DNA of 64,000 bases from Aphelocoma coerulescens (Eukaryota > Chordata > Aves > Passeriformes > Corvidae): positions 682,001-746,000 of the forward strand of contig NW_027184084.1 of NCBI RefSeq assembly GCF_041296385.1, in the 5' to 3' direction. The notes under the pieces were generated by a model that had not been told where the DNA came from, searched no databases, and was given only the letters and a program-made list of their open reading frames with translations. A program made the position numbers and the translations under genes. Shown here one piece after another: positions 52,670-54,878 of the stretch; the first letter of the stretch is position 1; each line of letters begins with the position of its first letter.

Positions 52670-52945
52670 TGTTGCAGCGGGGATACTGCAACACGCATAT
52701 ATCAAACCAGGAGTCCCGTGAAAAAGAAATAAATATATACGGACGGATTCTTGCTAGATGTTTCAGAGATGTTTATTTCCCCAGCCGCATGGCCGGGCTC
52801 TGCTGAGGGACTGCTACAGTCGGGGCCCGAGCTGCTTTGCCCGCGCAGGGGAACACAAACCAACCAATGGGGAACGAGGCTGAGCAGGGGCAGGGAAACC
52901 CCGTGCCTCCCCTCAGGGCTACATGGCAGGGGAGGGACCCCAACA
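52670..52945 (-). repeat. 3' LTR of Y-box element copy 2
   Basis: 276 bp, TGTTGCAGCGG...ACCCCAACA. In the sense direction it follows an A-rich stretch with AATAAAACGGG. Confidence 0.94.
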
Positions 52946-53162
52946 TCTCACCCGTTTTATTTTAATAAAAGGAGAATGAAGACAATTGGATAAACATAAC
53001 AAGAACAGTTTCAAAACAAAACAAGCCACCCTCCTGAGTCTTTAAATGTCCAAACAAATTCTGTGGAACATCTCAGGGCTGACAGAAGGGAGACAGAACT
53101 CTCTGGACATGCCTGTGGGGAAACTGAGGCAGGAGAGGGTTTAATTTCTTTCCTCCCCCTTT

Positions 53163-54491
53163 TCATCCCCCCATCGGCATCGGAAAGGGATTTTTGGGGA
53201 AACAATTGGCAAAGGCAGGGGTTTGTGAGGGAAACCATGGATGAAAAAACGGATTGGGAATAAACTGGGGATAGGGTAAACTTAGGAAAGGGTTCATATT
53301 GGGTATAGGGTAAAAGGGGAAATTAGGCTGTGGGTAGGGAAATTGCTGGAATGGATATTGTTTATAATTTTGTGCATAACGGCTGCCTTTGACGGGAATA
53401 CCTCCAGGCCCAGTAACATTCGCTGCTTGTAAACCCTTCTTTCCTTGCACTATATCAAATTGAACAACTTCCCCATCTCCTACACTTTGCAGGTAATTTT
53501 TAGGGTTATTCCTTTTAATGGCAGTTCTATGGATGAATAAATCTTCCCCTGTATCATCTCGTGTTATAAATCCATAGTTGTTTTTCACATTGTACCATTT
53601 CACAGTTCCTGTGACTTTCGTTGCTAGAACGTCTCCTATCACGTGCTTGCGTGTCTGTCGTGGCTGCTGGTCCCGCGTGGCCGCCGCCTCGCCGACTCCG
53701 ACGTCTCGGTCAGGCCCCCGCGCCGCGGCCGCTCTGCGCTCTCTGCACGGCCCCGCTCCAGCGCCTGTCTGGGCTCTGCACGGCTCCGCTCCGCAAACTC
53801 CACGCTGCTTCGAGAGCGGCCCCGTTCCGGCTCGGCGCTGCACTGCGCGGCTTCTCGTGTCGCTGTGGAAACCGCCGCTTCTCCCTGCATAGGGCTCTCC
53901 GAGCCGTATGCACAGAGCGGGCTTCCACGCTGACCTCCGGTTCCTGGCTGCTCGTGGCCCACGGCACCCATGGCGCCTGCGGTGTCGCTCCCTCACTCGC
54001 GGCCGGGTGGCTGGGGACCCCGAGACAGGGATGGGGTCCGCAGTAAGGCGCGCGCTCCCGAGGGGGCCGGGCACATCCAGCGCAGGCACCTCCGCTGGCA
54101 CGGCTGCAGTCATACACTCCTGGGGTGGCCGCCACGCGGTCTCGGCCACGGGAGAAGTATGATCTTCTGCTTTAGGGGTAATGGGATCATACAGATGCTC
54201 CTGAAGAGCGTCACTGATTATAAAGGATCCACGGAGAGCTTCTATCGCTAGTCCATCCCTTAGCTTATCACAGATCTCGTTCCAGAAACACTCCTGAGAA
54301 TATCCAGGAGGTTTGATATCAAAAAGTAAGTCTCGAGAAATATAGGGGAACTCTTTGAAAAGCCAGATAAAAAAGTGTTCAAGATCTCCCGGTTCCAATA
54401 CTTTTTTGTTTTGTTGTTCAAGGATCCCTTTTACTTCTAGATACATTTTTTTCTGTGGCTCAGAGAGCCCCATTTCCCACGATTCTTCCAT
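53163..54491 (-). CDS. Matrix-like Gag fused to Y-box cold-shock domain
   Basis: 442 codons from the first ATG (54489-54491); the open frame extends 22 codons further 5' without ATG, over a GTGAGTAAA splice-donor-like site. Residues about 1-105 resemble a betaretroviral matrix (LSEPQKKMYLEV, FFIWLFKEFPYISRDLLFDI, FWNEICDKLRDG). About 106-165 is an acidic/Pro linker. About 166-285 is Arg/Ala-rich and GC-rich. About 291-374 is a Y-box cold-shock domain: KWYNV, NYGFITR, LFIHRTAIKRNNP, GDGEVVQF, VTGPGG.PVKGS.YA. About 378-442 is a Pro/Phe/Tyr/Asn-rich tail ending NPFPMPMGG. There is no intron. Expected role is RNA binding; fusion to matrix suggests a Gag-like carrier. It is fully open, unlike most ORFs around it. 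Confidence 0.92.
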   Translation of the reverse strand: MEESWEMGLSEPQKKMYLEVKGILEQQNKKVLEPGDLEHFFIWLFKEFPYISRDLLFDIKPPGYSQECFWNEICDKLRDGLAIEALRGSFIISDALQEHLYDPITPKAEDHTSPVAETAWRPPQECMTAAVPAEVPALDVPGPLGSARLTADPIPVSGSPATRPRVRERHRRRHGCRGPRAARNRRSAWKPALCIRLGEPYAGRSGGFHSDTRSRAVQRRAGTGPLSKQRGVCGAEPCRAQTGAGAGPCRERRAAAARGPDRDVGVGEAAATRDQQPRQTRKHVIGDVLATKVTGTVKWYNVKNNYGFITRDDTGEDLFIHRTAIKRNNPKNYLQSVGDGEVVQFDIVQGKKGLQAANVTGPGGIPVKGSRYAQNYKQYPFQQFPYPQPNFPFYPIPNMNPFLSLPYPQFIPNPFFHPWFPSQTPAFANCFPKNPFPMPMGG

Positions 54492-54582
54492 AGTCCAGAT
54501 ATGCAATAGCAAAACAAAACCAAGAAGAGGAATCCAAAGTTTCCAGGGTTTACTCACACAAATCAGTCACGGGGATCGTTCT

Positions 54583-54600
54583 GCTCGCAATCTTCCACCA
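54583..54600 (-). promoter_or_regulatory. Primer binding site of Y-box element copy 2
   Basis: Sense TGGTGGAAGATTGCGAGC lies two bases after the 5' LTR, the position expected for a PBS. The following AGAACGATCCCCG is shared with copy 1. I could not assign the tRNA. Confidence 0.6.
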
Positions 54601-54602
54601 TA

Positions 54603-54878
54603 TGTTACAGCGGGGATACTGCAACACGCATATATCAAACCAGGAGTCCCGTGAAAAAGCAATAAATATATACGGACGGATTCTTGCTAGATGTTTCAGA
54701 GATGTTTATTTCCCCAGCCGCATGGCCGGGCTCTGCTGAGGGACTGCTACAGTCGGGGCCCGAGCTGCTTTGCCCGCGCAGGGGAACACAAACCAACCAA
54801 TGGGGAACGAGGCTGAGCAGGGGCAGGGAAACCCCGTGCCTCCCCTCAGGGCTACATGGCAGGGGAGGGACCCCAACA
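54603..54878 (-). repeat. 5' LTR of Y-box element copy 2
   Basis: 276 bp, TGTTACAGCGG...ACCCCAACA. Presumed promoter for the fusion ORF. Confidence 0.94.

Follow-up and report, generated by a model that had tools for sequence, protein, structure and literature searches.

How a retroelement could come to carry an RNA-binding domain of its host, and what that domain would do for an element with no polymerase of its own, is the question raised by a locus of the Florida scrub-jay, Aphelocoma coerulescens. The stretch analysed, here called the window, is 64,000 nucleotides long (GCF_041296385.1, contig NW_027184084.1, positions 682,001 to 746,000) and contains at 52670-54878 a 2.2-kb element flanked by long terminal repeats (LTRs). 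A first inspection of the letters alone had predicted a young retroviral element that encodes a Gag matrix fused to a captured Y-box cold-shock domain (CSD). The analysis reported here found a complete, non-autonomous LTR retroelement with a CSD that is recognized by profile search, and a family of relatives in two corvid genera.

Architecture of the element

The element, referred to as copy 1, is a complete LTR retroelement of 2209 bp with its sense on the minus strand. Sequence comparison confirmed the predicted pair of 276-bp LTRs, which have TG...CA ends and differ at two bases (LTR positions 5 and 58 as written on the plus strand), and the perfect target-site duplication (TSD) around them. 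The frame is intronless and has 442 codons; on the minus strand it begins with the ATG at 54491 and ends at the stop codon, 53165-53163. Upstream of the ATG it stays open to 54566 with no further ATG. When the stop-to-stop frame was base-shuffled in three composition blocks, which kept the shuffles composition-matched, 0 of 2000 stayed open. The features of copy 1 are as follows.

54879..54884, no strand: TSD GGGTTC, right copy, a perfect 6-bp match to the left copy
54603..54878, minus strand: 5' LTR of copy 1, 276 bp
54492..54602, minus strand: leader from the 5' LTR to the ATG, with GTGAGT and a site for the published primer P_R_F_1 (discussed below) at 54566-54585, 3 mismatches
54177..54491, minus strand: residues 1-105, alpha/betaretroviral matrix fold by fold prediction
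53640..54176, minus strand: residues 106-284, Arg/Ala/Gly/Pro-rich basic linker, GC 0.71, net charge +18, no structure predicted
53376..53639, minus strand: residues 285-372, Y-box CSD (boundaries set in this analysis; Pfam match 294-361)
53166..53375, minus strand: residues 373-442, Pro/Phe/Tyr-rich tail (51% P+F+Y), with a site for primer P_L_R_2 at 53224-53243, 1 mismatch
52946..53162, minus strand: 3' untranslated part, mostly 90-92% identical to a second copy in the window
52670..52945, minus strand: 3' LTR of copy 1, 276 bp
52664..52669, no strand: TSD GGGTTC, left copy, a perfect 6-bp match to the right copy

The GTGAGT motif is present in the leaders of both copies and could be a splice donor. 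The upstream open extension of the frame (54492-54566, minus strand) reads as a hydrophobic, signal-like stretch.

The profile search identified the CSD as PF00313, which spans residues 294-361 (E 2e-22, with a score of 79 bits where the cut-off is 27), and the three motifs on which its prediction had rested (KWYNV, NYGFITR, and FIHRTAI) are all present in the translation. The nearest sequences in the PDB are those of YBX2, zebrafish YB-1, and YBX1. The residues of YB-1 that contact RNA have been named (PMC7226217), and the four RNA-stacking residues among them are conserved in every one of the 14 element rows, which comprise the two window copies, 11 corvid protein clusters described below, and the protein P0013. 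At the other contact positions Lys64 is replaced in P0002, Lys118 is replaced in P0013, and Asn70 is changed to Gln or His in 10 of the 14 rows.

A Pfam scan of the 442-codon frame to E 1 found the CSD without any retroviral domain. The capsid models Gag_p24 and Gag_p30 did not match the frame, and as a control these models do match other endogenous retrovirus (ERV) frames within the same window. The CCHC zinc knuckle pattern C-x2-C-x4-H-x4-C was not found in the frame, nor was any protease, polymerase, or integrase. Copy 1 has this single long frame, in which no pol domain was found, and so lacks gag-pro-pol capacity; it is a non-autonomous derivative and not an autonomous ERVK. Pattern searches for late-domain motifs in the fusion protein gave one PPGY, at residue 61, and neither PTAP/PSAP nor YPxL. 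Neither an Rfam nor a tRNA scan of the window gave any match, and a reading of the sequence that follows the 5' LTR in both full copies in the window assigned no tRNA to a primer-binding site.

Residues 1-105 are predicted to form an alpha/betaretroviral matrix domain, as their predicted fold best matches the matrix proteins of Rous sarcoma virus, mouse mammary tumour virus (MMTV), and Mason-Pfizer monkey virus. The proposal of a matrix-like N-terminus thus has support from the predicted fold and none from the sequence profiles, as the Pfam matrix models did not match the N-terminus in any of 7 rows. An IMG/VR scan with the matrix alignment gave no match. The N-terminal domain could instead be another small helical domain, in which case the LTR element would be built around a non-gag protein. 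The missing Pfam matches, a net charge of -9, and the lack of a significant Foldseek match with the N-terminal model all favour this alternative; set against the fold prediction, we consider it doubtful.

Transposition and age of the family

BLAST of the element revealed that the family is represented in the window by two full copies and one solo LTR, with unrelated flanks and their own duplications. Copy 2 lies ~43 kb and the solo LTR ~39 kb from copy 1.

7807..10120, minus strand: copy 2, a complete element (2314 bp) with LTRs at 9828-10120 and 7807-8097 (293 and 291 bp)
7801-7806 and 10121-10126, no strand: TSD CTGCAA flanking copy 2
8378..9079, minus strand: open frame of copy 2, translated as 234 aa with the CSD and tail
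13527..13806, plus strand: solo LTR of the family, with the TSD AATAAC on both sides
58854..58992, minus strand: paralogous empty site for copy 1, which reads through the joined flanks at 89% over 139 columns

All three insertions feature TG...CA ends and a 6-bp TSD (GGGTTC, CTGCAA, and AATAAC). The joined flanks of copy 1 also find a second, weaker, and gapped read-through at 164-290 (76%), a paralogous repeat without the element; those of copy 2 and of the solo LTR have no second place within the window. Transposition of the copy 1 family is shown, because separate insertions have their own duplications and the related sequence at 58854-58992 reads through the insertion point of copy 1. Segmental duplication is ruled out by the separate TSDs, the unrelated flanks of the copies, and the empty site. 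A host Y-box retrocopy or gene that lies between LTRs by chance would account for the intronless frame, however, the two complete copies with separate TSDs, the solo LTR, and the empty site rule out a retrocopy at this locus, and the same fusion is seen in crow and scrub-jay proteins; this explanation is barely credible. The original prediction of a transposed element, and not of a host multi-exon Y-box gene or of copies that share the same flanks, is therefore supported. As a side observation, copy 1 lies inside a repeat, the two parts of which (51679-52669 and 54881-55203) are 93 and 96% identical to an uninterrupted inverted relative 4 kb off (59913-58600).

The LTRs of copy 1 differ from each other by a Kimura two-parameter (K2P) divergence of 0.007, those of copy 2 by 0.069. 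At the crow rate of 0.0158 per site per million years that is used in PMC7341801, these values correspond to ages of ~0.23 million years for copy 1 and ~2.2 million years for copy 2; with slower avian rates both ages would rise. The term young accordingly fits copy 1, and copy 2 shows that the family is older.

Relatives, donor gene, and proposed working

Protein searches were done with three segments. Residues 1-150 retrieved 2 proteins from 153 candidates, one from Aphelocoma coerulescens (94%) and one from Corvus moneduloides (67%). Residues 280-442 gave 1928 matches, the best 120 of which include at least 10 corvid proteins of the element family. A search with another matrix type (P0007 residues 1-105) found 4 proteins among 16 candidates, all from crow. 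BLASTP aligns one matrix type with the other (47% over 56 residues, E 6e-10). Combined, the searches define at least 11 corvid clusters, 10 from Corvus moneduloides (36 member sequences) and 1 from Aphelocoma. The CSD is present in 11/11 of these clusters and the tail extends over at least 45 residues in 9/11; it is absent from P0002, and P0121 ends early within it. The matrix part is present in five (P0001, P0002, P0004, P0007, and P0121), P0009 holds one end of it, and the other five show none as annotated. By sequence, the matrix-CSD fusion occurs in predicted proteins of the New Caledonian crow and the Florida scrub-jay. P0013 features a CSD and a related tail with no matrix match. Among the relatives found with the matrix and CSD-tail segments there was no Gag of an autonomous element. 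Separately, inspection by eye shows four cold-shock repeats in P0003, a protein of 704 aa (source jgi) for which Pfam PF03145, of the Seven in absentia type, is listed.

The two window copies are mosaic in their similarity. In 100-base windows the LTRs are about 80-87% identical, the leader 84%, the matrix and linker 41-59%, the CSD 70-73% (49% in the window with the CSD start), and the tail end and 3' part 90-92%. The synonymous divergence (dS) of the CSD, 1.28, is far greater than the LTR divergence of 0.148. In copy 2 the matrix part (9720-9427) is not continuous with the 234-aa frame, and crow P0004 has a matrix of the copy-2 type followed by a CSD of the copy-1 type. Subfamilies seem to have traded cassettes, and the mosaic copies and P0004 would be consistent with template switches among co-packaged RNAs.

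Between copies 1 and 2, which belong to different subfamilies, the CSD has 34.5 synonymous differences over 56 sites and 35.5 non-synonymous differences over 190 sites, which gives a ratio of non-synonymous to synonymous divergence (omega) of 0.17 (Fisher p 4e-9 on rounded counts). The omega of the tail is 0.45 (Fisher p 0.04). For the matrix an omega of 0.40 was obtained, a value not to be leaned on because it comes from 63 codons with saturated dS.

A host Y-box gene of the YB-1 family is the likely source of the CSD, and spliced RNA is a plausible route of its capture. In a tree built from 53 rows, 12 from elements and 41 from hosts, the element CSDs all group separately from host YBX1-3 (support 99/96); P0013 is the closest of them to the host proteins, and no single donor paralog is favoured. 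The element rows are the two window copies, 9 of the 11 corvid clusters (P0008 and P0011 were left out), and P0013; the host rows are 41 of 42 picked by name from 120 listed, P0095 being dropped since it did not fit the cutting pattern. P0003 and P0010 were also left out of the tree. The first 80 columns barely separate YBX1, YBX2, and YBX3 (57, 57, and 57 for copy 1). Residues specific to one paralog number 12 for YBX2, 6 for YBX1, and 1 for YBX3 (in copy 1) over four rows (the two window copies, P0004, and P0121), where the YBX3 consensus consists of 2 rows, one of which (P0012) was assigned to YBX3 in this analysis. P0013 has 6 residues specific to YBX1 and 2 to YBX2, and it shares with YBX1 alone an Asn-His, a Pro-Arg, and a Pro-Pro after the CSD as well as an Ile before ATK. 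YBX1 is slightly favoured as the donor because P0013 is the least diverged. The tail and LTRs common to the family lead us to lean toward a single capture.

The element likely moves in trans, because searches of the frame found neither a capsid nor a zinc knuckle or polymerase. In the working that we propose, an LTR element with a predicted matrix and a captured host CSD was moved by a fuller retrovirus, and its protein would escort the element RNA into the particles of this helper. The LTR-driven RNA would encode the matrix-CSD fusion, and the helper would supply particles, reverse transcription, and integration. The CSD and the basic linker may coat the element RNA, doing the RNA work that is normally done by nucleocapsid, and the matrix part may meet the Gag of the helper and so bring the RNA complex to it. 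MMTV Gag associates with YB-1 and viral RNA, and knockdown of YB-1 reduces particle output (PMC4486188, PMC6797609). The fusion would then build into the element the assistance of YB-1, which MMTV obtains from its host. Three points weigh against this proposal: no helper for the element was seen, UYAUC is not enriched in the element, and the predicted matrix part is acidic. We consider it evenly balanced between right and wrong.

The CSD could also be passenger cargo, picked up by chance as in acutely transforming retroviruses, with the element copied by means of its LTRs and RNA signals only. The architecture, a fusion of partial gag to a host gene with pol and env lost, fits such a pick-up, and the weak matches of the matrix model in Foldseek include erbB (E 2.5) and Fps (E 3.0) of avian viruses, transforming proteins that we take to be Gag fusions; neither match is significant. 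This explanation is unlikely in view of the low omega of the CSD between subfamilies, the four stacking residues in every row, and the fusion in two corvid genera with two matrix types. Less probable again is that the protein acts on the host or on competing viruses, either as a decoy Y-box protein that alters the storage or translation of germ-cell mRNA or as a truncated, interfering Gag. Y-box proteins do package and mask germ-cell mRNA (PMC7226217), and the fusion keeps a CSD with no capsid found. However, the element is multi-copy with one young copy, as expected from selection for its own spread, and no single conserved host locus was seen in searches that did not cover host genomes.

The window contains other elements. 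ERVK-like gag remnants at 35341-37976 (minus strand) feature the N- and C-terminal Gag_p24 domains and a weak zinc finger. The gag at 37413-37976 was considered as the helper and rejected, as it had no BLASTP match to the matrix part and no LTR-like BLASTN match was present there. A Gag_p30 frame at 40646-41182 (minus strand) adjoins a reverse transcriptase frame at 39142-39822 and is likely a third kind of ERV in the window. A 7.3-kb inverted pair (17315-24568 and 41327-48610) is 93.7% identical and has direct end repeats of ~0.9 kb (97.8 and 98.3%); a single frame of the copy at 17315-24568 encodes reverse transcriptase, RNase H, and integrase. In the first long frame of this element a 57-base repeat (~4 copies, at 18760-18987 and 46909-47129) encodes Pro-Glu/Asp-Pro runs. 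A TCTT array of ~115 copies (98%) lies at 14804-15261.

The hooded-crow NDP insertion and known systems

Weissensteiner et al. (2020; PMC7341801) reported a 2.25-kb ERVK insertion of the subfamily corCorLTRK1b, with 296-bp LTRs, at chromosome 1 position 112,179,329, 20 kb upstream of NDP. This insertion is homozygous in all genotyped hooded crows, is associated with lower NDP expression and with plumage, and is named the prime candidate for the grey plumage of these birds (PMC7341801). Of the published inner primers, P_L_R_2 fits copy 2 without a mismatch (8436-8455) and differs from copy 1 at one base; its site reads in frame as tail codons of the fusion protein. Primer P_R_F_1 matches the leader with 1 mismatch in copy 2 and 3 in copy 1. 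The expected chance matches of the two inner primers are 0.00 and 0.01, and neither of the flank primers with which they are paired gave a match. The primer order and orientation agree with the element, with inner-primer spacings of 1323 and 1339 bases in the two copies, and the inner primers match with 0-3 mismatches. The sizes are also similar, 2.25 kb with 296-bp LTRs for the NDP insertion versus 2209 (276) and 2314 (291, 293) in the window.

There is one discrepancy regarding the primer positions: PMC7341801 puts the inner primers in LTR regions, whereas in the window elements they map just inside the LTRs. The left product of the NDP polymerase chain reaction is 659 bp versus 649 in copy 2, which leaves too little flank if the NDP copy is equally long; the 3' part of the NDP copy must therefore be somewhat shorter than that of copy 2. 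Because the inner primers match there and the order, orientation, and distances fit, the NDP insertion is, on primer sequence, a carrier of leader and tail sequence of the window family. By its length it probably holds the middle of the family as well, and it may match over its full length and carry a CSD. The window family likely includes the hooded-crow insertion. The words gag and open reading do not occur in the main text of PMC7341801, and the name corCorLTRK1b had just this one source in the literature search. A broader scenario, in which the family swapped the RNA-handling end of Gag for a host Y-box CSD, spread in corvids through cassette swaps, and in one insertion switched hooded-crow plumage, is tentative and falls a little short of an even chance.

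If the NDP link is true, the analysis gives coding content for the element family tied to crow plumage and premating isolation, and its germline RNA, its protein, and its silencing can be addressed directly in a bird system for which population data exist. A germline family that keeps a captured RNA-binding domain under apparent constraint offers a natural test of whether nucleocapsid work can pass to a host messenger ribonucleoprotein protein. The statement in the original prediction that no retroelement with a Y-box domain had been described agrees with the literature searched (titles and abstract openings, with subscription papers and supplements outside its scope), in which no retroelement with a cold-shock or Y-box domain was described and no germline vertebrate family with a Y-box domain was found. 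The words cold, ERVK, and Corvus do not occur in the excerpted text of PMC8310711, a paper on ERVs of the avian W chromosome.

Retroviral capture of host genes is known mostly from tumour viruses. Acutely transforming retroviruses feature partial gag joined to a host coding segment, have lost their enzymes, and need a helper. Similarly, the frame of the element joins a CSD to what the predicted fold indicates is a gag part, with no pol domain found. Unlike those viruses, the element is germline, multi-copy, and present in two corvid genera, and its host part is a constrained-looking RNA-binding domain and not an oncogene. The maize LTR element Bs1 resembles the window element in having a hybrid frame into which pieces of host genes were captured (PMC5408686). 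It comes from a plant, and its captured pieces are not known to include RNA-binding domains. Host-gene transduction into gag-bearing LTR elements is already known, from gag-oncogene viruses and from Bs1 (PMC5408686).

Like YBX1, YBX2, and YBX3, the element CSD has all four stacking residues. The C-terminal domain of Y-box proteins features alternating basic and acidic clusters (PMC7226217). Unlike these proteins, the element features a predicted matrix in front and a Pro/Phe/Tyr tail (2 Lys, 0 Arg, net +2) in place of an alternating charged C-terminal domain. In MMTV a betaretroviral Gag and YB-1 meet viral RNA in cytoplasmic foci as two proteins (PMC6797609, PMC4486188), whereas in the element the corresponding parts would be joined in one chain.
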